From Heliocidaris erythrogramma (Eukaryota > Echinodermata > Echinoidea > Camarodonta > Echinometridae), in the NCBI GenBank assembly GCA_025617745.1, contig CM046858.1, forward strand, positions 28,596,534-28,660,533: a stretch of 64,000 bases of DNA. The letters are read 5' to 3'. Below the pieces are notes generated by a model. That model was given only the letters and a program-made list of their open reading frames with translations, had not been told where the DNA came from and did not search any database. How positions within the stretch are numbered: the first letter of the stretch is position 1; the number at the start of each line of letters is the position of its first letter. This document shows, one piece after another, positions 5,855-57,842 of the stretch. A program made the translations under genes and the position numbers.

Positions 5855-6355
5855 CTGAGCATTCTTCTGTATGGATGTGAGTCCTGGACGACATACCGCA
5901 AACAAGAACACCGCCTTAACGCCTTCCACTTCAGATGCCTGCGTTCCGTCCTTGGAATCTCCTGGAAGGATCACATCCCCAATACCGTAGTATTGACACG
6001 TACAGGTGCCACGGACATGTACACAATCCTTCGTGCACGCCGACTTCGCTGGGTTGGACATGTTCATCGGATGGATGACAGTCGCCTACCCAAACAAGTC
6101 CTGTACGGCGAACTAGCAAACGTCCCACGACCTCGCGGACGTCCCAAGCTGCGATACAAAGATGTCCTGAAGCGTGACCTCGCTGCCTTCGACATCCCCT
6201 CTGACTCATGGGAAGACTCTGCAGTAGACAGAAGACACTGGAGATCGTCCATCAAACGTGGGAAAGAAATCGCCGCCACATCCTACATCAATTTCTGTGA
6301 AGAACGACGGGCCAAGAGGAAGCTGACCTCATCGTCGTCCACGACGGGATAGGCC
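5855..6355 (+). mobile_element. LINE 3' coding remnant (RTE-like C-terminal domain)
   Basis: Reads LYGCESWT, then LNAFHFRCLRSVLGISW, then RLRWVGHVHRMDD and RPRGRPKLRYKDVLKRDL, ending in a stop at 6350-6352. This block order is the well-known C-terminal end of RTE/related LINE reverse transcriptases. It is much richer in G+C than its flanks, suggesting an intruder. Only the 3' end is present, as expected from 5' truncation during reverse transcription. Confidence 0.75.
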
Positions 6356-13273: not shown

Positions 13274-13279
13274 TTTATT
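13274..13279 (-). promoter_or_regulatory. Probable poly(A) signal of the receptor gene
   Basis: AATAAA read on the minus strand about 150 bases past the tail exon's TAG. It is the first such hexamer in the 3' untranslated region. A GT-rich stretch lies at 13308-13370, upstream of it in transcript sense. Confidence 0.5.
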
Positions 13280-13429: not shown

Positions 13430-14663
13430 CTACACCTTGTTGTCATTATCCCCTTCCCAATGCTGAAATTCCAGGTTTTCCAGGGTCTGGTAATCGTCGG
13501 TTGAATTAGGTTTCTCGTAGTCATCGACGTCATCGTCATCGGCTTGTTTGATCGTTGTCTGACTATTTCGGGGAATCCCTGGTAGTGGTTCCCGATTGAG
13601 ATGATCATATGCACTTTCATATGCACAAGCATCATGTGTTGAATGTTGAAAGTCGCCAGGCATCTTTATCTGATCATCTGTAGATCCGAAGTCTTTCCTT
13701 GCCATTTCGGCTAACGTTGGCTCTAAAGAACCATAATCACTTAGAGGTGTCTGTTTGGACGTCCTAAACCCTCTTTGTAGGACATCGTACGGTTGGTCCA
13801 AACTGTCCACTGTTCCATTTCGGGGTTGGGAGGCTTTGTGTTGTCCACGATGTACATGTACATGGCCATAGATTTCACAGGTATCTCCTACGTTCTTGAA
13901 AGATGAATCTGGCTCAAGGACTGCATAGTCAGGGCCATCTGGGTCTGTTTTTACAGATTGAAAGCCACTGCTCTGGTCCATCGTATCAGGTTCCAGTGTA
14001 GCATACTCGGGCCCACAATCCTGAATGGGGTGGTAAGTACTTTCCATCATTGGGTCAGATCCTTTCTTCTCAGGCTTCGCGGTGAGACAAACGGCATGAA
14101 CATGCTGATGAAGGGAAGCTTTGTTCTCACCAATTTTCAGTAAAGCTTGATAGACGTGGTCGCCCTTTTTATGACTCTCAGCTCCCTTTTCCCCAACGCT
14201 CATCAAAATACCGCCGGCCCCACATATCATGTCTCCAGAAAGTTTCCTCTCATCATCTTCCTGGCACCTTTCATCCTTCAAAAGCTCTTGGTAATGGCCC
14301 ATCCCCTTGTTCTGAAACCTGTCATTCTTGAACTTGTCCTGTCTGTTGTCTGGGATCATGGTGTACTCGTGATAGTTCCCTCTTTCTTTACCCCCGAACA
14401 AGACATTGTAATCCTGTTCGCCTATCTCATTGTAAAGAGCCATCTCATGGGCAAATGATGCCTGAGTACAAGTGAGATTGTGATGCCGACAGCCACCAAG
14501 TTCCCCGCCGCCAAGAAAGCCAGAATCAGAAGGTCTCGATGGAGAATCCGTGATATCTGCGTAGTCGCGTTGCTCGTCATCAGTTGTGTCACCATAGGCC
14601 TGATTCGGAATGGTTGTCGAAGTCTTGGGCTGTCCAGTGGGATTGGGCGATGGGGAAATTTGC
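13430..14663 (-). CDS. Receptor 3' exon: 410-residue cytoplasmic tail with 14 YxxL/I/V motifs
   Basis: This exon begins after an acceptor ending TGCAG (14664-14668), completes a split Arg codon, and runs 410 codons to TAG at 13430-13432. It has no hydrophobic segment. In order the Tyr motifs are YADI, YNEI, YNVL, YTMI, YQEL, YQAL, YHPI, YATL, YAVL, YGHV, YDVL, YGSL, YDHL and YQTL, plus YEKP near the end. Three fit the strict ITIM form with Ser at -2 (STYHPI, SDYGSL, SAYDHL). Three share a YxxLEP core (YATLEP, YAVLEP, YGSLEP), suggesting internal duplication. Spacing between pairs is mostly not the 6-8 residues of a classical ITAM. YEKP resembles Crk/Nck SH2 sites. Inference: a multi-site phosphotyrosine docking tail facing the cytosol. 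A probable poly(A) signal follows at 13274-13279. Regular motif spacing and the conserved paralogous copy at 57 kb argue that it is real coding sequence. Confidence 0.82.
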
Positions 14664-15281
14664 CTGCATAACGACAACCATTTCTCATTCAATTACCATG
14701 GTAACAGTGATACCAAAACGATGAATATGAGCATGGCAAGGCCACAGATCGTGCAAAAAGAGTGTACGTTCGTAGATTTACAATGATTTAAGCATATCTC
14801 ACATTCTTCTATCCGAATCATGAGATAAATTTGTCACTAATGTTTGTACTTTAGAATTGGTTGTTGTTAAGTTAGTATTTTGGGGTACAGGAGTTATTTT
14901 TTTGCCATAAAATCTTAAGCATATTGCATTTTGGGATGCCAAAAAGAAAACATATGATCTTAAGATATTACCGAATCAATTTTTTAAACGTGGTACGCGG
15001 AATAGGAGGGTCAGGCACTCCCACACTTTGTCAAACGGACTGACGAACATGGTACGGATTTACACTCATGCTGTTTGGGCACTTCGATCATTTTAACCCT
15101 GGCTTGAATTCAGAGTTAATGTATTAGAGTAACCATGGTAACGACGCCTTTCAAATATATTACGATAATAAAATCAATAGTTTGTAACGTGTTGAATGAA
15201 TTGAAAAACCTGTTCAAATTCGCTATTAAAAGGTAAAAAAACACAACAAAAGTAAAAACGAAAACATACACATACACATAC

Positions 15282-15372
15282 CGCCCTCTGTAGACTGTGG
15301 CTGCCAAGATCAAGAGAAGAAGGAATACGACCACCATTACGACCGCGGCTGCCACTACTACACCAGTCGAAT
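15282..15372 (-). CDS. Receptor transmembrane exon
   Basis: A 91-nt exon with acceptor CTGTAG (AG at 15373-15374) and donor GCG|GTATGTG (GT at 15280-15281). It encodes a short Ser-Thr-Gly lead, about 24 uninterrupted Val/Ala/Leu/Ile residues, and then Tyr-Arg-Gly, which fits a type I stop-transfer boundary. It starts with two bases that complete the G left by the stalk exon (giving Asp) and ends with CG, which joins the first G of the tail exon to give Arg. Phase therefore agrees on both sides, which is the strongest support for this part of the gene model. The open frame runs on past both splice sites, but the flanking residues are low-complexity. Confidence 0.78.
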
Positions 15373-16082
15373 CTACAGATAATAGGTAAAATAAAGATAC
15401 CTCCCGTTTAGGAGGAGGGGGTGGGGTCATAAGAACAAGTTCTAGATCCAATTTTTCCACAGCCAATCAAATGCAATAATTCTTAATTTTTTTTTAAATT
15501 ATGTTTTTTTAAATTTCTTTTTTAAAAGATTATATCGATTACTGTCTCTTGTCATTGATTACAAGTTTCTAGGAAAAGGGGCCCTGAAAGTTGAAGGTCT
15601 ACGAGACAAAAAGTTCATGACACTGGATTTCCACTAGACCAAGTATTTCAGTTTTCTAAGGAACCTTTCCACTAGTCAGCAGGTCCCCGAGATCGACACA
15701 CGATTGGTCTCGTGAGACCCTATGAATACGAATTTCCGCAATGTAGGACTTGTGTTTCAGAGATATAACGGCAAAAGAAAAAAATCGTTTTGACATGAGA
15801 AAGGTGAGGAAAAGAAGGAGCACAAAACATCAATTATTTTCCAAAAATGTCGGTGATTTATAGCTTCTTTGGAGATTTTATTTTATTAGGGTATGAAAAC
15901 TTGAACATATGATACAATTATTGTCTTTAATAAACAGTGTGCATCTCGTTTTTAAACGACGTAATCATTATGTCATAAAAAGTAAAATGCTTTGCTCGCA
16001 TGCTCCCCATTTGTTTTCAATCCAAGAGTTGGCACAACATAATGGGACAAAGTTAAATATTTCATCTTTCGTGTCTGGTTAC

Positions 16083-16445
16083 CTTTTGTTTCTTCAGTAG
16101 TTGCTGAAACATTGTGCGTGGTTAATTTCGAGGTTTTAATTTCAGACGAAATCGGTTCGGTTGTTCCTTCCATAGATGCCTTTGTTACTGTGATGGGTAG
16201 AGTAGTCGATTTGGAGGTTTCAATTTCAGACGAAATTGGTTCGGTTGTTCCTTTCATAGATGCCTTTGTTACTGTGATGGGGAGAGTAGTCGATTTTGAT
16301 GTCGTAGCCTCATTAAGCAGTGGTTCTGTTTCTCCAATAAAAGTTGTAATAAGCTTTTCAGTGGTTCTTGATGTCATTTCTCCCTCTGTCCTCGTTACCT
16401 TTGAACTCGTGTCAAGACAGTGTAAAATGAGAACTATCACAACTC
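16083..16445 (-). CDS. Receptor Thr/Ser-rich stalk exon with two 28-residue repeats
   Basis: The exon encodes a Thr/Ser/Pro-poor-in-Cys stretch typical of an O-glycosylated stalk between an ectodomain and the membrane. Two nearly identical 84-bp units sit at about 16133-16216 and 16217-16300; each carries the core TTLPITVTKASM followed by a TTEPISSEI block. The donor is AAAAG|GTAACC (GT at 16081-16082), leaving a single G that fits the transmembrane exon. The 5' edge is uncertain: acceptors giving high ends of 16445, 16463 or 16433 all preserve phase 1; I chose 16445 because GATGCAG|G fits the consensus best. An in-frame stop just upstream rules out a much longer exon. Repeat number may vary between alleles. 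Confidence 0.68.
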
Positions 16446-17280
16446 CTGCATCATGTTCCTCAACTGTTATCTGTTTTCAAATGCACACAGGTGAAGATAT
16501 ACAATGGGCAGGAGCAATCAGTATATCTCAGAAGTAAACATTGACTGATTTTAGTGTATCACATAGGATGGAGAACTTTTTGTATTTACTTCCTAGACAT
16601 ATTTTCCTGTCCATGGGGCTGCAGCCCCCACTTTTTTGAGTAGACACGTTTATAAAATCTCGGAAAAAAGGTTCGAAAATTGTCATTAATGAGTGAAATC
16701 AGATTAGCCCCCGCTTTCATAAACCGTTTTTAATGAAAAGATAAATGTCGGATGTGCCTCTGATGAAGGAAATTCTCCATTGCTTTATATTTTCCTTCTT
16801 CGCAAATAGGATTAGACATGTTGGAAAAAATCAACAAGGTACTTTTACTACACAAACTAAGGCGGAAAGCATCATAAAGAGACGTTCTTTCCTTCTGGTG
16901 ACCTAGTGTCAATAAGACAATAAGGCATTCAAATACATTTATGAATCATTGCAAAAATTGGCATAAAGAGATTTTGGTATCTCATTCAAAATCTAATACT
17001 TCTTTCACGAGGCAGTGACAGGGGGGGGGGGGGGGGGGGGCATGTCCCTTGAATTTTTTTCAGGAGGAATTTGCCCCCGGATATTTTTATTATTTTCCTC
17101 CTATAAGTTATTGAAGTTTAATCTTAGTGTGATATGGATACTAGGATACATATACATGTACTACGCTCTCGTTACAAAATTGATTAATTTTATGCGTACA
17201 TTTTGACGCAAAAAACAGCCGAAAACAGGGTGAATTTCTCATTATGGAGGTAAGCCTTACATTGCAGCTAGTAACTCAGT

Positions 17281-19170
17281 GGGGGTCCGCTCGCTAGTCA
17301 TAAGGACCGCTAGTCATAACAAAAATTATTCATAAGGACCGCTATTCATAATAAGACATAAAGGTCCCTATTCATAAGGGTCATTCATAAGGACCGCCAT
17401 TCATAATAAGGCATAAGGTTCGCTATTCATAATACGGAAAGAGGGTCGCTATTCATGAAGGTCAATATTCATAAGGGTCGCTAGTTATAATCGGTGCAGA
17501 TGGTCGCCATTCATAATCGAAGAAGAGGGTCGCTATTCATAATCGGAGAAGAGGGTCACTATTCATAACGGAGAAGAAGGTCGCTAGTCATAATCGGTGC
17601 AGATGGTCGCTATTCATAATCGAAGAAGAAGGTCGCTATTCATAATCGGAGAAGAGGGTCGCTATTCGTAATCAAAGAAGAGGGTCGCTATTCATAATCA
17701 AATAAGATGGTCGCTATTTATAATCGGATAAGAGGATCGCTATTCGTTATCGGAGAAGAGGGTCGCTATTCATAATCGGAGAAGAGGGTCGCTATTCATA
17801 ATCGGTGCAGATGGTCGCTATTCATAATCGAAGAAGAGGGTCGCTATTCATAATCGGAGAAGAGGGTCGCTATTCTTAAATGTGTATATTCATAAGGGTT
17901 GCTATTCGTTATCAAAGAAGAGGGTGGCTATTCATAATCGGAGACGAGGGCCGTTATTTATAATCGAAGAAGAGGGTCGCTATTCATAATCGAAGAAGAG
18001 GGTCGCTATTCATAATAGTAGAAGAGGATCGCTATTCTTAAATGTCTATATTCATAAGGGTTGCTATTCGTTATCAAAGAAGAGGGTCGCTATTCATAAT
18101 TGGAGAAGAGGGTCGCTATTCTTAATAGGAGAAGAGGGTCACTATTCATAATCGAAGAAGAGGGTTGCTTATTCTTAAAGGTCAATATTCATAAATATTC
18201 ATAAGGGCCGCTATTCGTTATCAAAGAAAAGGGTCGCTATTCATAATCGGTGCAGATGGTCGCTATTCATAATCGAAGAAGAGGGTCGCTATTCATAATC
18301 GGAGAAGAGGGTTGCTATTCATAATCGGAGAAGAGGGTCGCTATTCTTAAATGTCTATATTCATAAGGGTTGCTATTCGTTATCAAAGAAGAGGGTGGCT
18401 ATTCATAATGGGAGACGAGGGCCGTTATTTATAATCGAAGAAGAGGGTCGCTATTTATAATCGAAGAAGAGGGTCGCTATTCATAATAGTAGAAGAGGAT
18501 CGCTATTCTTAAATGTCTATATTCATAAGGGTTGCTATTCGTTATCAAAGAAGAGGGTCGCTATTCATAATTGGAGAAGGGGGTCGCTATTCATAATCGG
18601 TGCAGATGGTCGCTATTCATAATCGAAGAAGAGGGTCGCTATTCATAATCGGAGAAGAGGGTTGCTATTCATAATCGGAGAAGAGGGTCGCTATTCTTAA
18701 ATGTCTATATTCATAAGGGTTGCTATTCGTTATCAAAGAAGAGGGTGGCTATTCATAATGGGAGACGAGGGCCGTTATTTATAATCGAAGAAGAGGGTCG
18801 CTATTTATAATCGAAGAAGAGGGTCGCTATTCATAATAGTAGAAGAGGATCGCTATTCTTAAATGTCTATATTCATAAGGGTTGCTATTCGTTATCAAAG
18901 AAGAGGGTCGCTATTTATAATTGGAGAAGAGGGTCGCTATTCTTAATAGCAGAAGAGGGTCACTATTCATAATCGAAGAAGAGGGTTGCTAATTCTTAAA
19001 GGTCAATATTCATAGATATTCATAAGGGCCGCTATTCGTTATCAAAGAATAGGGTCGCTATTCATAATCGGAGAAGGTGGTCGCTATTCATAATAGGAGA
19101 AGAGGGTCGCTATTCATAATAGAAGAGGGTCGCTATACATAATCGATGAAGAGGGTCGCTATTGGTGGGT
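17281..19170. repeat. 26-bp satellite array with higher-order units
   Basis: About 1.9 kb of a unit close to GGGTCGCTATTCATAATCGG plus AGAAGA, with variants (TCGAAG, TTATCAAAG, TCGGTGCAG, AATGTCTATATTCATAAG). Blocks recur in fixed order: 18248-18597 and 18598 onward match for over 170 bp, a higher-order period of about 350 bp. The left edge is more diverged, as usual for the older end of a satellite. There is no spacer/repeat alternation, so not CRISPR. It lies in a receptor intron. Confidence 0.9.
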
Positions 19171-19810: not shown

Positions 19811-21652
19811 TAAGCGCGTCCTTCAATTTGTGAAAATATAATTTGTGAAAAATTATGTTTACAGCTCATTTTCCCCCCAAATATAAAAAAATATGCAAAT
19901 AATTAAACATAGATCTAAACATTGAAATATGATCAACCCAGGATATAAAATTTATTCAGCCTTCATACATTAAAGAGGTTGAGATTATGCTTTAAAACTT
20001 TGAAAGCGATTTATTCAAAACTAACTTTCTTTTAGTTGCGCGCTCATCCATCACTTGTGAAAACAGTCACGAATTTTGACTGAAAGATAACAGCTCGTAG
20101 CGCCTTTTTAGGCCTTTTCTCTCACTTCCCCCTCTTTTTTGCTCTCGCGTTTTCAGGGGCGAAATCCGTCGCAGACCACACGCACGAAGGTGCAAGACCG
20201 GTTTTGACCAACCTTTAAATATATAAGATCTCACCTATCTGCTGAAGATGACGCTATTTTTGCGAGTTACCGACAAAAGAAATCTATTTTGAGAGAGTAC
20301 TCTAGGTACTCTAGGTACTCTAGAGTACCTTAATATAGAGAGTAGCGACATGGACGTCTGACTTTTCGGAAAAACAAAAATTCTTGAGAATACCCAGGTG
20401 CTCATCGGAATTGAATAGAAATGTTGCATAGCAGAGGAAACAAAATGGCGTTCAAATCATGAGTTGTCGCGACTCTCTTTATGTAGGTACTCTACATGAA
20501 ACCATCCAACAGTGCCCTCTTGAGTGCCGGGTCTAAATCCCTTTAAGCTACCTTCTTAGACCCTTCCTGGTCCCTTCTTTAAAAATGCAATCACGTTGTA
20601 TGCCAATATATTTATCCTGTCCACACTAGGCCATTTACCAAATTAATTGGTACACACCTTACATACATATTTACCTCAATTTGCTCTTCATTTAGTGAAG
20701 AAGAATTCCAGCACACTTTTATCGGTTTGATGTTGTCGGGAGACGGAGTGCTAATATTCGTATCTGAATGAGAGGTGAAATTAAAATATAAATACACAGT
20801 GAGGAGACTGATCAACTTGTCTGTGATGTGGCCAGCAAAGTTGGTGTGCGTTTGGAGACGACAGACATCGACCGCAGTCATAGAATTGGTAGACAGCCCA
20901 CTGGTAATAAGTGCAGAGGAATCATCGTGAAATGTAGTACCTACCGTGTTCGACAAAAACTCCTCCTGAATCGCCGTCGCTTGAAAGGGACTGGTATAGT
21001 TATACAGGAGGACCTCACTGCCAAAAACCTCAACTTATTGCACCATGCTCAAACTCATGAGAAGGTAACAGCAGCATGGACGGCAGATGGGAGAGAAATT
21101 GCTCTGGTATCTACTAGTGATGGTCAATCCATGAAGAGACTGATCAAGAACATTGATGATCTCAAACTGTTATAGTTTTGTACTATTGCACATTCATACA
21201 TGTAACTTTGCTAATTAATGTATTTTATATGTTATACATGGACATTCATTGCTCCAATGTATCAGGTACATGTGCAAGCCATGCAAATTGTGAAAGTTTA
21301 TGTTGCAGCCGATACTAGCTTGTATGTGTCATTTTATTTTTTTAATTATCTAAAATGCTTGCAATTCTGAACTTGCCAATTGTTATCAATTTTATGGTTA
21401 TTTGAAATTTTAATGCATTTAGCCTGGTGTATTTATCAAGTTTTAGTATATTTATTGCTCCTTGTGGCAAGAGTGCTCAATGTTTCATTGTAAACTTTTA
21501 CATATACTTGTAATTTTATTGTAATTTAAAGTTTGTGGTTGTGCCCTTCAATTGTACATGTATGTGTGTGTTGATGTGTATGTGTTGTTTTCAAAATGCA
21601 AAATAGAGAAAAATACGAGAATTTGTTGCATTCTTTGAGAAATTGATCTACA

Positions 21653-22606
21653 ATGTCTGAAGCTTTTTTACCACCTAATGTCAATACCGATTTTTATGAA
21701 CATAGCTTTTCATATGTTACACCACAAGAATTCAATGATCATCAGGAAGATCTTTATTCAAATGGATGTTTGCAAAAATCCAATTTTTCTACCATACATT
21801 TTAATTGCAGGAGTTTGCATGCAAATTATGATAACTTATTGTCTGTACTTTCATCTCTGCAAATGCAATTTTGTACAATAGGAATTACTGAAACATGGCT
21901 ACATTCTAATAACTCTTTTTATAATATTGATAATTACACACTTCTTGTTCATGGAAGGGAATACCAACGAGGTGGTGGAGTTGTTTTGTACACTAGAAAT
22001 GATTTGGATTTTAAACCCAGAACTGATTTAGATGTAAATACTTCATTCATGGAATCTTTATTTATAGAAATAAGTAATTATAATAAAAATGTAATTGTTG
22101 GTGTTATTTATCGACCACCTAATCAATCTGTGCAAATGTTTTTAGATAATCTTGAACATATTATCAGTATTGTAAATAAAGGACATAAACATGTATATTT
22201 ATTAGGAGATTTTAATCTTAATTTGTTGGAAATCCCTTCTTGCCATAATGTTAATGCTTTCTTGGATATTTTTATGGTAAATTCCATGTACCCATTAATT
22301 CACACCCCATCACGTGTAACAAGTAATTCTGCAACTTTATTGGATAATATATTTACGAATGATATAGATGACACCTTTTCAGGTGTTATTTTGGCAGATG
22401 TGAGTGACCATTTTCCTGTTTATTCTTTATCTAATCTTCATGTTAAAGTAAAACAAAACCCACAATCGTTTTTCAAACCAGAAATAAATAAAGAAAATAT
22501 AGAACACTTTGTAAATAAAATTAATAGTATTTCTTGGAATTTAAGGAGTCAAAATGTTCATGAGGCATATCATGATTTTTTAAAATACATTTCTCTGTTA
22601 TTATAA
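21653..22606 (+). pseudogene. LINE endonuclease domain, open frame of 317 codons
   Basis: An exonuclease/endonuclease/phosphatase-fold domain that nicks target DNA for target-primed reverse transcription. Catalytic motifs are present in order: the Asn/Arg motif near HFNCRSLHAN, ITETWL with the metal-binding Glu, GDFN with Asp/Asn, and SDHFP with the Asp-His pair. Length is typical for a CR1/Jockey-type endonuclease. It is cut off from its RT by a stop at 22604-22606, whereas intact elements carry both in one protein, hence the pseudogene call. Confidence 0.8.
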
Positions 22607-23659
22607 TGAATATTTCCCTGAGAAAATATGTCATATTAACAAGAAGCATAGAAATAAACCTTGGTTTAATAATTATTTATGTAAGCTGTGTAAGAAGAAA
22701 TATTTGTTGTATAAAAAATATGTAAACAATCGGACAGATTATCGATATGATGTATATAAAGATTGTAGAAATAAGGTAACTGGGGAAATTAAAAAAGCCA
22801 AAAATAAGTATTTTAAAACGTAGTTTAACTTTGCTGTGGGAAACATGAAAATGACATGGAAAATAATTAACAAGGTGCTTGGGACTAGATCCAAATTAAA
22901 ATCCATGCCAGATATTATGATGTGCAATAATGACACTATAACGGGGAAAGATGCAATTTCAGAGAGTTTTAATAAATATTTTATTGATATTGGTGTTAAA
23001 TTAGCAAACTCATGTAATCAAGATGGTGATTATATCCAATATGTAAAAAGAAACAATCAAACTGCATTTTTTAAACCGTGTACTCCTAAAGAAATTATTG
23101 ATATTACATGAAGTTTTAAGAATGGTAAAAGCCTAGGATTTGATGGCATTGATATTGCAATAGTAAAAAAGGTAATTCATATTATTTGTTATCCACTCTG
23201 TACAATAATTAATTTTTCTTTACAGACAGGTATTGTTCCAGAAAAGATACAAATTGCTAAAGTTATTCCTGTATATAAAAATGGTTCAAAAGAGAGTATG
23301 TCTAACTATCGTCCAATATCAGTTTTGCCTGTTTTTTCCAAAATATTTGAAAAAATAGTATATGTTAGACTGTATAGTTTTTTACAAGAGTGCAATATTC
23401 TTACCAACTGTCAATATGGTTTCAGACCTGGCCATTCGACATCTACAGCTTTAATTTAATTTTTATATAATGTTTGAAATACAAAAGAAATAAAGAAATA
23501 ATGATAGGGCTCTTTCTAGACTTGAGCAAAGCATTTGATTCATTAAACCATGATATACTATTAAGAAAATTATATTGTTATGGAATAAGGGGAGTTAATT
23601 TAGAATGGTTTTAAAAGAACTATCTAGTCAATCGACAACAGTTTGTTTGTGTAGATAAT

Positions 23660-24271
23660 GTGAATTCAAAATTATTGATTAGCAAATGTGGAGTACCCCA
23701 AGGGTCCATTCTTGGTCCATTACTCTTTACAATTTACGTTAGCGATATGTGCAATATTTCAAAATTATTAAATTTTATCTTGTTTGCAGATGACACCAGT
23801 GTATTTATGTCACATAAAGATATAGATATTTTACAATATAAATTTAATCAAGAACTTAATAAACTTGTTCAATGGTTGCAAATAAATGAATTAGTTTTGA
23901 ATATAAATAAAACACATTATATGGTATTCACAAATGTCCATCAGAACAATGCTAATTTTGTTGTTAAAATACAGGAAACTGAAATAGAACGTGTTACTAG
24001 ATTACAATTTCTGGGTGTAACTATTGATGAAAAATTCACATGGAATGAACACACTGGTGTCATATGTAACACTATATCTAAAAATATTGGCATTCTTAAT
24101 AATGTAAAGTTTTTCCCCCAAGATATATTGTTAATGTTATACCATACCCTAATATCACCTTATTTAAATTATTGTATATTGATGTGGGCAAATTCTACTG
24201 CCAAAAATACTAATAGAGTATTTAAACTTCAAAAACGAGCTATAAGAATTATTACACATAGCAGTATTTAG
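23660..24271 (+). pseudogene. LINE reverse transcriptase core, truncated frame
   Basis: Contains the RT fingers/palm signatures GVPQGSILGPLLF and LFADDTSVFM, with the FADD catalytic pair, followed by QFLGVTIDEKFTW and a thumb-like region. Upstream RT blocks ([38 protein letters not shown]) are readable from 23300 to 23560 but separated by stops. The frame stops at 24271 and resumes in another frame (24322-24666), so there is at least one frameshift. Not functional. Confidence 0.82.
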
Positions 24272-25930
24272 CTCATACCACACCACTTTTTGCTCGTCTT
24301 CAAATTTTAAATATTCATGATATGTATAAACTTCAAAGTGCAATATTCATGTATATGTGTTTTCATAAAGTTCTTCCAGTTTCTATTATGTCATATTTTA
24401 ATTCAAATACTTCAATACATGATTATTTTACACGGAGTAACAGAAATTACAATATTCCATGTGCAAGAACCACGTTATTTCAAAAATCCATATTTTACAA
24501 TGGTCCGAAAATTTGGAATGAAATACCGAATGATATCAAAAGTAGTTCATCATTGAATGTCTTTAAGCAAATGTATTTACTTCAGACATGTGCAATAACA
24601 TATCTAATAGGCATTTTGTATGTGAGTGTGTGTGTGCGTGTGTATGCGTGTATGTGTATGTGTTAGGGCACAATGTGTTTTACATACTGTATTTTATTCA
24701 TGTACTGTAGTTATGTATAACATGGGGTGCGGCTTCAATATAAGACTTTGTCTTTCTGCTGCATTTCCCTGCAATTTCTTAAGTATTTTATTGTTTCAAT
24801 TGTTTTAATGTATTACATGTATTGTATTTGTAATGTTTTTTATGAATTTGCTAAATAAATTGAATTGAAATTGAATTGAATGAGAAAAACAACAGTAGGT
24901 ATAACGACTATGGTTGTTTGTTATGCAATTAATATTAAAGTCAGTATTAATAACTGAAATAAAAACAACTGTAAAGAAAATATGAAGAACTCTTGTGATT
25001 GCGAAGATGTGAAAATATGAGTAGGCCATACATTTTCTTTTAAAGTGCTTCCTTATTCCTAGGATAAAATCAAGTTATACAGTATCACTTTGCCTGTATA
25101 GAAAACACTGGAAGGAAAAATCAAGCAAAATAACTGACTGCTTTTCATGTCATGGAGACATGCTTAGGATATTCACATCAACCAAACACAAACACAAAGT
25201 ACAAATGAAAATAAAAACGGAAGAATGTTTACAATGGTGTCACAAAACTAATTGCAAAATGATGAAATGGCACATAATCTATATGAAAGATTGCACAAAG
25301 ATATGAACGATAACGAATTTTCATGACGAAATTAAACGAAAAAAAAAAAAACCAAATCAAAAAATAATACAATGGACGGGGAAACCTATCAATGAAAATT
25401 ACTCATGAATTGGGAAATGATATTCGATGTGCAAAGAAAATTAGAAAATACAAATTTTCGTATGTTTTGGACACAAAATCATAAATTATCCTTTTCTCGC
25501 ATACATGAGGTCACGTTACAACCGGACGCCTGGGTTTCGTGAACGTGGTGTCAAAAAATGCGTAATATAGTAGAAAATTACAATCGTAAAAAAATAGAAA
25601 AAATAAATCGCAAAATTGTAAACTAAATCAAAATATGGTTTGATATTGTGAAACAATAACCAATTATCCAAACGACTAATGTGGAAGAACAAAACAACAT
25701 CCCTATTTCATTTTGACTTCAATGTCTCCACTGACTTTTAAGGGTTTAATTATGAACCTTCGTAAAATGTACCCCAAAGATATTAGCGTGTGTACCTTTT
25801 CTTCTAAAGAGGGCGAAATCGGGTAACATAGAAGCAGAAGTTCTATTCATTAAAGAAAAATAAACAAGCGAACATGAATATGGTATATACACAAAATACG
25901 ATAAAATAGATTGATAATTAATATTTTTAC

Positions 25931-26176
25931 CTCTACTTTCCACAACTTGTAATGTCATGTTGAACCTTCCCTGGTTAGCAAGCATGATTTGCAAGCATTC
26001 GTGCTCGCTTCCTTTATTGGTATATATTGGTGTCTCGATTGTACCGTTTCTTTTGAACAACGTGCTGTTGATACTCCTAGTCAGTTGATTCCAGTCGTCT
26101 CGTGTTGACGTGTAAGTAAAATTCACTGAGCACGGTATAGTGTTTCCATCACAAGTCATTTCTAGAGGGCTCCAAG
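25931..26176 (-). CDS. Receptor extracellular exon, Cys-containing and N-glycosylated
   Basis: A 246-nt phase 1-1 exon with a strong acceptor (TTCTTATCCCAG, AG at 26177-26178) and donor AGAG|GTAAAA (GT at 25929-25930). It encodes 81 full codons with three Cys (TCDG, PCSV, ECLQ) and four Asn-X-Thr sequons (NFT, NST, NGT, NMT). It ends with a strand-like segment, LANQGRFNMTLQVVES. Alternating hydrophobic residues and the Cys pattern suggest an Ig-like or other beta-sandwich module, but I cannot name the family. Its symmetrical phase lets it be inserted between the EGF-like exon and the stalk exon without changing frame. Assignment to this gene rests on strand, order, phase and secretory character; it lies about 9.5 kb from the next exon, with a LINE in between. 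Confidence 0.6.
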
Positions 26177-26403
26177 CTGGGATAAGAACACCTGATTAGA
26201 AAGTGAACATACCTTTACAAAAAGTTACAGATTCCAATATGCAGCTCTTTACAAAGATGTACATTCTAAAACAAGTTGGGCAAAGTTTACGCAATATAGA
26301 GTAAATTTTACTATTATACATTTACTCAGTGTTGGTTAGAATTTTGGAGTAAAAAGTAAATATCTCTAATAACACAAATCGATTTCTAGCGCTAGTCAAA
26401 CTA

Positions 26404-37334: not shown

Positions 37335-38092
37335 GAACGTGCAGGCCACTCAACTGGGAAATGAAGAGCAATGATGCGATTGGCAAAGAGTTCAGTCAAA
37401 CGATTCCTCACGGCAAGAAGTCTGTGGGCTGGGGCCCCATCCTGAGCCCACCAGGCCCTGCGGAATACTCCACGTCGTTGTCGGGGAACATCTGTTCCAT
37501 CTCCGGCACAAATAAATTGTTCAGCATGTCAAGGTACGCCTGGCCATTGATGTTGCCTTCAAAAAAGTAAGGTCCCACCAATGAACCATTGCCACAAAGT
37601 CCAATCCAGACACTCACTTTCTCCCTGCTCATGTTCTTATTAAAAGCATATCCCGGTGGATGATGGAATTCAGCATACTCGTGCTCATTGTGGTTGTTTA
37701 CCATTCCATCCATGGAAAACGTTGCTTCATCCGCGATGGTAAAAAACTGGAGGAACTGTCGATCTCGGTTGCACTGGTTCACAAACCATTGTGAAACTAA
37801 CTTGCCACAGTGATGATTTGACACCCATTCACTAAGTTGAATCATGCTCAGTCATGCATGACAGTTAGACAACCTAAGTGATGTAATTGGACAGAGGACT
37901 TATTGGACTATCTAACCATGAAAAAATAATGTGTAAATATTTTATAGTTTTCTGAAAATTTGCCGTTGAAGTTGAGTTTACTTTTTTTAGAGACACGCTG
38001 TATATTATGTTTACATACAATAATAATCATCATTTTTACCCTACCAGACAGGCTTGCCACTATCACCTGCCGCGAACAAGAACCCTCTTTGC

Positions 38093-39872: not shown

Positions 39873-39962
39873 CTTCTAAGCAGGATTTAGACAGAGTTCC
39901 ACCTTCAGGACAAAAGCAATACTCTTTGTCGTTTGAAGGTATGCAGTCTTCACCATTTATAC
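39873..39962 (-). CDS. Receptor EGF-like exon (second half of a six-Cys module)
   Basis: A 90-nt phase 1-1 exon with acceptor CCCATGTTTAG (AG at 39963-39964) and donor TAGAAG|GTATAC (GT at 39871-39872). It encodes a Cys-x8-Cys-x-Cys-x9-Cys pattern: EDC, EYC, FCPEGG and SCLEG. The CFCPEGG core with Gly after the fifth Cys is typical of EGF-like domains. Joined to the preceding exon, whose last residues contain two more Cys, it gives the six Cys of an EGF-like fold. The domain is extracellular and disulphide-bonded. A 90-nt open frame is short, so support comes from splice sites, phase and Cys spacing together. Confidence 0.66.
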
Positions 39963-43974: not shown

Positions 43975-44203
43975 CGCTATCACATAAAGGCATATAAGAC
44001 CAAGGAGGTACCAGGCAAGCTTGCGTGTTACCTCCCTGATCAGACCCATTGCTCATGCCGACTGCAGGTCCATATAATAAAGTAATACTGACAAAGAGTA
44101 GGATGTAACACTCAAATCGATTAAACAGCCAGTCTATTCTGTGTGACATTTTCTCAAATCTCAATTCAAAATCAAAGTTGAAACTCTCCTCGTCTTTGTC
44201 CAA
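43975..44203 (-). CDS. Receptor first coding exon: signal peptide and start of EGF-like module
   Basis: The exon starts at ATG 44203 and ends at donor AGCG|GTAAGTT (GT at 43973-43974) in phase 1. A second in-frame ATG at 44149 may be the true start, because it gives a classical signal peptide: a basic/polar n-region (MSHRIDWLFNRFE), a hydrophobic core (CYILLFVSITLLYGPAVG) and a small-residue cleavage region. With the upstream ATG the signal would be an internal one. After the signal come a polar Gly/Asn stretch and two Cys (QAC, PLC), which pair with the four Cys of the next exon to form one EGF-like module. This split is the reason I join the two exons directly. Upstream sequence to about 44.6 kb shows no obvious TATA box. 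Confidence 0.66.
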
Positions 44204-45390: not shown

Positions 45391-47093
45391 CACTGTTGGT
45401 CATAATGCATAATTTTTTTTCTACCTTTCGTACACTATTGACAACAATACGAGTCATTTTTTTGCAAAATAAAGCTTTTATCTTCACCGATTTTATTGAT
45501 AAATCTGTTCTCAACATATGAAATAAAAAAATATAAGACTAAAATTAAATAAATAAAATTAATTCATACAAACTTTATACACTGGTTTAAACCACATTTG
45601 ACAAACACAATCATCCAGAACTTGGATTCCTGGAAAAATGTATCGTTTTTTGTAAATGTTTAACCATGATAATTTTATCGTGAAAAATAAAATCTTGGGA
45701 TCTTTTGATGACTGAAGGGAAGTGTTCCTCTTTTTAATCTTGTTGGGTCACTTAGTACCTGGTATGGCCACTTCTGGCACGCACCAGTGCCTCCACACGC
45801 CGTGGCATACTGTCCACAAGGTTGTTGATGGTGTTCAAGGGCAGTGCATCCCACTCTTCGGTCAGTGCCTGGGCTAACTCCTGCACATTTTGAGGATGAT
45901 TGTTTCTCTCATTGATGGCACGGCCCAATGCATCCCAGGCGTGCTCAATGGGGGTTCATGTAGGGGGAACAGGCAGGCCAAGGCATCTGCTGCACGTCCT
46001 CTGCGTCAAGGATTTCCCTCACCAGACGTGCCCTATGTGATCGAGCGTTGTCGTCTTGGAGCTGAAAGTTATTGCCATATACCCTTCTCGCGTATGGAAG
46101 ACAATGGCGTTCCAGGATATCGCGGTACACGACGGCGTTGACGTTTCCTTCAGGTGCAGCCAATGGCGTTTTTCCGCCATAACATATTCCGACCCATACC
46201 ATCACTGAGCTCCACCCGCTTGATTGGTTTCCTGGACACAGTCATTACGGATGTTCTCGCCCCACAATCGTCGAACCCTCTGCCTCCCATCGGTGAGGTC
46301 AAGGATGTACCGGCTTTCATCAGTGAAGATTACATGGCGCCAGTGACCAAGTTGCCATCTCATGTGCCTCCTAGCCCACTGGAGTCGAGCAACCCGGTGG
46401 CGAACAGTGAGACGTGGAACCTTGGTCATTCGCCGAGCTCTGTAGCCATGTTAGACAAGTCTCCTGTTTACGGTTTCCCGTGAAACGTTCACTCCGAAGT
46501 GCCTCCTCCACAAGTGGCGAAGACGACTCGCTGGCATTCTCCGGTTCCTACGGCACATGTTCAGCAGTTGACGGTCATCCCGTGCGGATGTTCTTCGTGG
46601 TCGACCTGTAGATCTCTCTGGACTCAAAGTACCCGCCTCTCGATGTCTTCTGAGGATGCGGCACACACAACTCTGCGATAGTCCAAGAAAATCTGCAATC
46701 TGGGCCTGTGTCCGTCCATTCCGTCGGAGTGCAAGGACCCTCTGACGAATTGCAAGTGCCGTTGGGCGAGGCATAGTGTAAGGAATGAATGTACCAAATT
46801 TGGTAGGAATTGATCAAGCTAACTCTGAAAACGGGCTGTTAACACACGTAGGCTTTCTGCACGAAATGGACAGCAAAACAACAGCAGAAAGGAGGCTCCG
46901 CCTTTCATAGCACCAAACAATAAGATAGGCCACGTTATGGAATGTTTCACTTGACCGACTTTTACCTCGACAATACAAAATCATTATGTAATCAATGAAC
47001 CTGGTCAATATTATCTATTTAGGCTTTTAAATATGATTAAATCAACGGATGACTATGAAAATACGAATTATGCTAACATTATGACCAACAGTG
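45391..47093 (-). mobile_element. Full-length Tc1-type transposon, 1.7 kb
   Basis: Ends are inverted repeats starting CACTGTTGGTCATAATG, flanked by TA at 45389-45390 and 47094-47095. The length fits Tc1 elements. The only gene inside is a disabled transposase on the minus strand. It lies about 1.2 kb upstream of the receptor's first coding exon, outside the coding part. Confidence 0.88.
45752..46774 (-). pseudogene. Tc1-type transposase, frameshifted
   Basis: N-terminal paired-like helix-turn-helix region starts MPRPTALAIRQRVLALRR with GRTQAQIADFLGLSQS and a GRPRR linker. The catalytic domain shows IFTDESRY (first Asp), LQDDNARSHRA (second Asp) and SPYMNP followed by IEHAWDALGR (Glu), as in DD34E enzymes. 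At least two or three frameshifts break it: around 46450, around 46203, and at the C-tract by 45948. The stop is TAA at 45752-45754. Length is about 340 codons if read across the shifts, normal for the family. It binds the terminal repeats and cuts and pastes into TA; this copy cannot make the full protein. Confidence 0.85.
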
Positions 47094-57035: not shown

Positions 57036-57842
57036 CTGAAGATGATGGAAGGCTACTCCATGTTGTCATTATTCGCCTCAATCTGCTAAGGTTTCAGACT
57101 GTTCAGGGTCCGGTAATCGTCGGTCGAATCCTCAGTGATCCCATCAGGTTTCTCGTATCCATCTACGTCATAATTATCTGTTTGTTTGATCATGGTTTGA
57201 TGTTTTCGAGGAGTCCCCTGCAGTGTTTCCCTCGTGAGGTGATCGTATGCACCATCAGAACCAGAAGCATCCTGCTCTGAATCCTTAGAGCCGTATGCCA
57301 TTTTTGGCTTACCAGTTGCAGAGTCGAAGTCCTGGCCTGTCAATTCGGCGAATGTAGGCTCCACAGAACCGTAATCACTTGGAGGTAGTTGTTTGGGTTT
57401 CCCAAACCCTCTTTTTAGGACATCGTACGGTTCGTCTGAACTGTCCAACGTTCGGCTTTGGGATTGGCTGTCCTCGTGTTGTCCATGATTTGCGCGGTCT
57501 GGGATTTCACAGGCAATTCCAGAGGTCTTGAAAGAGGCGTCTGTAAATGTGTCAGACTCAAGGACAGCATAGTCAGGTCCACTAGTGTCTGTATAAAAGC
57601 CATTTTCTGGTAGTTTCGTAGGATTCAGAGACTGATCAGATGTATCATCTTCAAGTGTAGCATTCTAGGGGCCACAATTCTCAAGGGGCTGGTAAGTACT
57701 TTCCCTTGTTGGGTTAGATCTTTTGTTCTCAGGTTTCCCTGGGAGACTGATGCCCTGATCACCAACTTTCAATAAAGCTTGATAGACGCGGTCTCCAGAT
57801 ACCTTCGAACCTCCAGCCTTCTTTTGACTTTCCACTCCCTAT
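57036..57842 (-). pseudogene. Broken paralogous copy of the receptor tail exon
   Basis: In reading order this matches the receptor tail from its middle to its end, including the YQAL, YAVL, YDVL, YDHL, YEKP and YxTL motifs and the stop-proximal and 3'-flanking DNA. Differences: a TAG at 57665-57667 replaces a Glu codon just before the motif corresponding to YATL; that Tyr is itself changed to Asn; YGSL is YGSV; and the C-terminus stops early at 57086-57088. The 5' half of the exon is missing because a LINE fragment begins at about 57843. No transmembrane or stalk exon is visible between here and the window edge. About 193 codons between the two stops remain open, so the copy is fairly young or was constrained until recently. 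A truncated functional paralogue is possible but less likely. Confidence 0.75.

Follow-up and report, generated by a model that had tools for sequence, protein, structure and literature searches.

The window analysed here is a 64,000-nucleotide stretch of DNA from the sea urchin Heliocidaris erythrogramma (contig CM046858.1, hereafter C6; C6:28596534-28660533), and the genome searched comprised 1.06 Gb in 26 contigs. Its mitochondrial contig, C24, has a COX1 for which NCBI translation table 9 gives a better reading than table 5 (AAA as Asn in PRMNNMSFW, with TGA as Trp under either table); tRNA-Arg, a frame named ND4L-like by eye and COX2 come after it. Gene order and code are typical of echinoderms, and the COX1 protein has an echinoid look. 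Its minus strand carries gene 1, which is very likely a real gene and probably a functional receptor gene. The exon model, derived from comparison with paralogues and from reading frames, has seven exons (44149-13430) and a predicted product of 756 amino acids. A first-pass annotation, made from the letters alone, had placed stalk, transmembrane (TM) and tail exons, linked by exact codon phase, at 13430..16445. These exons and their linkage stood, with GT-AG borders at both junctions: exon C leaves one codon base over and the TM exon enters in phase 1 (16083/15372), and the TM exon exits in phase 2 and the tail exon brings the third codon base (15282/14663). The interval itself was too short: the stalk exon reaches out to its start at 16470, and a further four exons (B, A, E2 and E1) lie upstream of it.

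We extended the model beyond that interval by comparing the window with the next downstream C6 copies and keeping exons that are colinear in gene 3, a tandem paralogue with six upstream exons of identical phases. Conservation in gene 3 was 60% over 415 nt for exon E1 (E 5e-19) and 65% over 162 nt for exon E2 (E 1.5e-12). All six introns of gene 1 are GT-AG, and their phases chain as 1, 1, 1, 0, 1, 2. The features of gene 1, and a neighbouring tail fragment, are as follows.

44032..44149, minus strand: exon E1, with start ATG and predicted signal peptide (MSHRIDWLFNRFECYILLFVSITLLYGPAVG...), donor GT, phase 1
39873..39962, minus strand: exon E2, a small Cys-rich module, C..YCFC..C, phase 1-1
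25931..26191, minus strand: exon A, the main ectodomain exon, phase 1-1, without a Pfam or PDB relative
20675..20763, minus strand: exon B, ectodomain, phase 1-0, with a counterpart in gene 3
16083..16470, minus strand: exon C, ectodomain end and Thr/Ser-rich stalk, 129 amino acids, 36% Ser/Thr, phase 0-1, with a counterpart in gene 3
16125..16296, minus strand: tandem repeat in the stalk, 84-bp (28-amino-acid) in-frame unit, two copies, 94% matches (Tandem Repeats Finder)
15282..15372, minus strand: TM exon of 91 nt, one helix whose interior has no charged residue, phase 1-2
13430..14663, minus strand: tail exon, 410 amino acids, 18 Tyr, 14 YxxL/I/V motifs, stop TAG
13274..13279, minus strand: AATAAA hexamer about 150 nt past the stop, a candidate poly-A signal picked by eye that may have arisen by chance
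57062..57820 (C6:28653595-28654353), minus strand: gene 2, which repeats the C-terminal portion of the tail and has two in-frame TAG

Only two stretches of the predicted protein are hydrophobic: the predicted signal peptide, where hydrophobic 19-residue windows begin at residues 12, 14 and 15, and the TM helix, where they begin at 314-330. From these we infer the membrane topology of the protein and the cytoplasmic position of the tail. The ectodomain spans about 170 residues plus the Thr/Ser-rich stalk, with seven N-glycosylation sequons ahead of the stalk and one within it. Neither ectodomain nor tail matched a Pfam family above its cut-off or any entry in a PDB sequence search. The same searches gave no immunoglobulin (Ig) domain in gene 1, although they could miss a diverged fold, and Pfam found no EMI or EGF-like domain in the spliced ectodomain. 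A C-type lectin domain was looked for in gene 1 and not found: Lectin_C was absent from the spliced ectodomain and from the three minus-strand frames of the window at 26.2-56.2 kb, and a C-type lectin-like domain (CTLD) profile run over the frames of the window and the C6 flank reached a best E of 2.5. An AlphaFold2 single-sequence model of exon A had a predicted local distance difference test score (pLDDT) of 40 and was discarded.

Tyrosine motifs and the family of tails

The gene 1 tail has 14 YxxL/I/V motifs, whereas 20,000 shuffles of its composition averaged 2.23 and never exceeded 8, and 14 of the 51 L/I/V residues stand at Tyr+3. Recounting reproduced what the first-pass annotation had reported of the 410-residue tail: the 14 motifs, three sites in the form of an immunoreceptor tyrosine-based inhibitory motif (ITIM; here STYHPI, SDYGSL and SAYDHL), and a repeated YxxLEP core, here counted three times (YATLEP, YAVLEP and YGSLEP).

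Searches with three tails as queries (E up to 0.01) gave tail matches, among the best candidates, on C6 and a second contig, C10, only. When neighbouring match pieces were grouped by hand, C6 had 4 tail loci and C10 had 18, making 22 in all. Seven long C10 tails were examined, of 371-467 residues with 18-28 Tyr, counting L021 and L022, which read alike; with the 386-amino-acid open frame of L028, the C10 tails free of interruptions number at least eight. The phase-2 junction between TM and tail was also read in L021 and L032, and blocks such as IYNEVGEQDYNVLFGGKE.GDYHEYNLP recur among the tails. On C6, the tail match of gene 3 is interrupted by one TAG and one TAA, and tail pieces with stops were all that turned up for genes 2 and 4. 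Very similar tail copies lie at 13.557/13.837 and 13.577/13.858 Mb of C10 (about 280 kb apart) and at 23.33/23.49 Mb (about 158 kb apart); these represent either recent segmental duplication or an uncollapsed assembly haplotype.

Column conservation was counted over seven tails, namely gene 1 and six full C10 tails; L022, which reads as L021, and the shorter L029, L032 and L035 were left out, the last three being kept in the motif counts. Mean identity of gene 1 residues with the six full C10 tails was highest for Tyr (0.72), followed by Leu (0.465), and was about 0.27 for non-Tyr residues overall, a value weighted from the per-residue identities. Six Tyr sites are common to all seven tails: Y77, Y85, Y97, Y100, Y210 and Y352. 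Tail orthologues lacking the Tyr motifs would have contradicted the first-pass annotation; the tails compared here, all paralogues from the same genome, keep most of them.

We made 12 pairwise comparisons of nonsynonymous and synonymous substitution rates (dN and dS), taking the Y and +3 codons from the YxxL/I/V/M/P motifs of the first sequence. The dN/dS ratio was 0-0.25 at these codons and 0.27-0.65 at other codons, and was lower at the motif codons in 11 of 11 defined pairs; several of the dS values exceed 1 and are rough. In the twelfth pair dN at the Y/+3 codons was 0 and the ratio undefined. In all 10 tails the three positions before Tyr (-1 to -3) were more often acidic than background (in gene 1, 0.30 vs 0.18). 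The C10 tails also conserve the YxxP sites YESP, YEDP and YETP, of which gene 1 retains one, as YEKP, and a juxtamembrane NPxF occurs in six of nine aligned C10 tails. What selection keeps in the tail, at the sequence level, is its Tyr motifs, the constraint falling on the Tyr and +3 positions.

Between genes 1 and 3, dN/dS was 1.36 for E1, 1.23 for E2, 0.65 for A, 0.85 for B, 0.48 for C, 0.46 for the TM exon and 0.36 for the tail over 198 shared codons, figures with wide errors for the small exons and drawn from a gene 3 that may be decaying. The exon and phase model and the existence of the family are established at the level of sequence.

Several repeats and mobile elements lie in and around gene 1. 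The intron between exons B and C contains a tandem array (17416-19163) of about 60 copies of a 26-bp unit with a higher-order period of 162 bp. In the intron upstream of exon B, on the opposite strand, we recognised by eye an element resembling a long interspersed nuclear element (20792-24663, plus strand), with frames like open reading frame 1, an endonuclease and a reverse transcriptase. Tc1/mariner-like transposase pieces lie at about 45950-46750 and at 37411-37851, both on the minus strand. One piece matched HTH_Tnp_Tc3_2 (E 1.9e-14) and a second matched DDE_3 below its own cut-off; the frame at 37.4 kb resembles this second piece (32% over 57 amino acids).

Ectodomain types upstream of the tails

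Two ectodomain types were found ahead of the tails. The lectin type is exemplified by L039, where a CTLD exon (Pfam Lectin_C, E 1.7e-11) is followed by an exon termed D2; D2 also lies upstream of TM and tail in L032 (E 9e-12) and, without a detected CTLD in the 10 kb read, upstream of the L024 tail. Genome-wide there were 101 CTLD matches. The nine on C10, two of which contain stops, each lie 1.9-12.1 kb upstream of a same-strand tail and together serve six tail loci. D2 was rejected as a homologue of the gene 1 ectodomain, the best hhalign result (E 0.027 at 1.8% probability) being of no use.

The window type, with exons E2, A, B and C, has a relative on C10 at L056, upstream of the L021 tail. 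A profile of genes 1 and 3 found its exon A at E 1.3e-4, and by eye we recognised there look-alikes of E2, B and C whose phases match; when exons B and C of genes 1 and 3 were used as a profile, L056 gave no match at E <= 1. Scores for E2, B and C of L056 came from profiles that contain L056 and, being circular, were not used, so that only exon A is shown by score; the D2 scores of L039, L043, L045, L048 and L051 and the CTLD scores of five loci were set aside on the same ground. As a genome query, exon A of gene 1 found itself and gene 3, and exon A of L056 found six C10 copies including itself. Of these eight copies, six lie 6.5-25 kb upstream of a same-strand tail. The other two, at C10:13614669 and C10:13904775 (both plus strand), have no recognisable same-strand tail nearby downstream.

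The 10 kb upstream of the L027 tail (L058) held nothing convincing: CTLD scored E 0.95, D2 gave no match at E <= 1, and the best window-type score (E 0.26) was on the opposite strand. Open frames at L058:2722-3189 and 5993-6331 (minus strand) have Cys patterns that look extracellular by eye and fit neither ectodomain profile; they are possibly a third ectodomain type. On a third contig, at C4:10330291-10349240, three CTLDs, one of them containing a stop, are close to the C10 receptor type (E 6.7e-36 to 1.4e-20). No tail match was found on C4, and these lectin domains are perhaps secreted relatives.

One pair of genes bears on how tails and ectodomains are combined. The L019 and L020 tails differ by a dS of 0.067, with 93% identity over 3 kb including the tail, whereas dS is 0.75 for the CTLD exons and 0.36 for the D2 exons that lie upstream. 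This single pair, in which ectodomains are assigned to tails by proximity, hints that two genes whose ectodomains are older have recently exchanged or converted their tail exon, and we regard it as a lead. In the tail tree two of eight inner branches were starred, so it gave no answer as to whether ectodomain type follows tail descent. Tentatively, and with more doubt than confidence, we propose that the clustered genes have a multi-tyrosine tail exon in common, which they exchange or homogenise, and that the ectodomains in front of it (C-type lectin with D2, or the E2-A-B-C type of gene 1) diverge or swap. Such genes would form a germline recognition family, variable outside and constant inside, with a built-in docking scaffold, and might belong to the surface receptors of sea urchin phagocytes.

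Comparison with known receptors

Vertebrate C-type lectin receptors such as Dectin-1, CLEC-2 and DCIR resemble the C10 relatives of gene 1 that have a CTLD exon upstream of a YxxL tail. They are short-tailed type II proteins with one ITIM or hemITAM site, whereas the predicted product of gene 1 is a type I protein whose tail is long, and no lectin domain was found in it. Two C10 tails (L018:1396-2829 and L024:1387-2733) contain DDGYTSL or EDGYTSL, which we take to be much like the hemITAM of Dectin-1; gene 1 has lost this Tyr. The phagocytic receptors CED-1, Draper and MEGF10 are likewise type I proteins with several YxxL, and the juxtamembrane NPxF of the C10 tails loosely recalls their NPxY; gene 1, however, has no NPxY in its YxxL-bearing tail and lacks, by Pfam, their EGF and EMI domains. 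LAT, GAB and p130Cas resemble the receptor proposed here in having many SH2-docking tyrosines along a long chain but have no ligand-binding ectodomain. The Alr genes of Hydractinia are also clustered invertebrate receptors with variable ectodomains. Their tails resemble ITIMs or immunoreceptor tyrosine-based activation motifs (ITAMs), their ectodomains are Ig-like and their tail motifs far fewer.

The amphioxus receptor BbLcLRR is likened to the family by its motifs. Its sites DDYATV, HDYSEV and HDYDDP are reported to be the main sites of Lck in Jurkat cells, and in human T cells the receptor is reported to associate with SHIP1 and, to a smaller extent, with SHP1/2 (PMC8211107). Sites of this type can therefore be Lck substrates. 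BbLcLRR is, like the predicted product of gene 1, a membrane receptor of an invertebrate deuterostome, and its sites share the acidic or His-x-Tyr flavour of RDYADI, HEYSEL and SDYEDP in the family tails; it differs in being a leucine-rich repeat receptor with three main sites against fourteen (PMC8211107).

No paper describing the receptor family was found in the open-licence PMC literature, as judged by titles and the openings of abstracts. The family, undescribed in the literature searched, is probably a variant of tyrosine-motif docking receptors and no new kind of system.

Docking and its alternatives

Taken together, we consider gene 1 to be, with fair probability, a type I multi-site phosphotyrosine/SH2 docking receptor and a member of a clustered echinoderm family. 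Several conserved Tyr motifs lie on the inferred cytoplasmic tail, as a docking receptor requires, and the TM helix offers no charged residue with which a separate signalling chain could pair, a feature in keeping with a docking receptor that is self-contained. Ligand binding by the ectodomain would cluster the receptor, a Src-family kinase would phosphorylate the acidic-flanked YxxL/I/V sites and some of the YxxP sites, and the phosphorylated sites would recruit several SH2-domain proteins together, the receptor acting as its own scaffold. The genome holds 55 SH2 exon matches, several less than 10 kb apart, and none of them was identified as Syk, SHP or SHIP. The first-pass proposal of a multi-site SH2 docking receptor is thus retained in its single-pass build, selected Tyr motifs and expanded clustered family, all as predicted from the DNA, and loses the ITIM identity of its sites, discussed below.

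Several observations weigh against this reading. Three of the four C6 tail copies contain stops. In the comparison of gene 1 with gene 4a, dN is not lower at the Y/+3 codons (0.449 vs 0.421), the low ratio coming only from a dS of 2.06 at those codons, and the C6 pairs rest on just 4-19 motif codons. Gene 1 also lacks some Tyr that the C10 tails keep: it has F in four of the aligned columns, K in that of YTSL and H in that of HEYSEL, and the C-terminal YSHL and YGKL sites of the C10 tails are absent from it. Finally, YxxPhi, Phi being a bulky hydrophobic residue, is also the endocytic signal of AP-2.

This last point allows the tail to be read as a sorting tail, bound by AP-2 in an endocytic or scavenger receptor that does no phosphotyrosine signalling. 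YxxL/I/V fits YxxPhi, and repeats could speed uptake, but one or two such signals are enough in known receptors, and the acidic flanks suit kinase substrates. The reading is further weakened because the C10 tails also conserve YxxP sites, which are not known to be read by AP-2, and we hold it to be quite improbable. That the tail is an open frame surviving from a dead gene would accord with the stops in its C6 copies, but the seven exons of gene 1 are open, its splice sites are intact and the constraint on Y/+3 is family-wide, so a relic seems very unlikely indeed.

Which SH2 proteins the tail would serve was addressed through motif class. An inhibitory receptor, whose tail mainly recruits SHP or SHIP and dampens phagocyte activation, is suggested by the three ITIM-form sites of gene 1 and by BbLcLRR, a receptor with similar sites that is reported to be inhibitory in Jurkat cells (PMC8211107). 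When the three sites were aligned with the six full C10 tails, however, none of the 18 positions was ITIM-form; residue -2 was N, D or E, and V once, where Tyr is replaced by Cys. Over the 101 YxxL/I/V sites of the seven tails, -2 was N in 22, D in 20, E in 15 and H in 11, and S, I, V or L in 9 together. We therefore rejected the ITIM label, which the first-pass annotation had given these sites. Since BbLcLRR itself lacks the canonical -2 residue (PMC8211107), the -2 evidence counts more against the label than against inhibitory function, and we rate an inhibitory receptor of this type as unlikely.

For an activating ITAM-type receptor, in which two YxxL/I sites spaced by 10 residues (Y210/Y220 in gene 1) would dock the tandem SH2 domains of a Syk-like kinase, the evidence is mixed. 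The full pattern with an acidic -3, [DE]xxYxx[LI]x6-8Yxx[LI], occurs in 8 of 10 tails, that is, in gene 1 and seven of the nine others, and exceeds motif-unit shuffles in L019, L020, L024 and L032 (P 0.00-0.03), the near-identical L019 and L020 not being independent in these counts; the hemITAM-like sites of two C10 tails also fit. Against this, the core pair was never in excess of motif density in any tail having it (P 0.13-0.75), the full pattern showed no excess in gene 1, L018, L027 or L029 (P 0.14-0.20), and the hemITAM-like Tyr is lost in gene 1. An ITAM-type receptor is a minority possibility in our estimate.

A receptor of like build may also serve outside immunity, for example in egg-sperm or cell-cell adhesion. 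This is compatible with the sequence evidence, but the family is clustered, some of its copies bear stops, lectin domains precede several of the tails and the tails may be homogenised, all of which recalls families of recognition receptors. We regard a non-immune function as improbable, and for the docking receptor proposed here an immune or phagocyte role appears likelier than others. That the family binds SpTransformer is a guess.

Clustered, strongly constrained in their tyrosine tail and now represented by a complete gene model, these genes provide testable receptor candidates, and the family offers a route to asking how tyrosine-based receptor signalling arose outside vertebrates.

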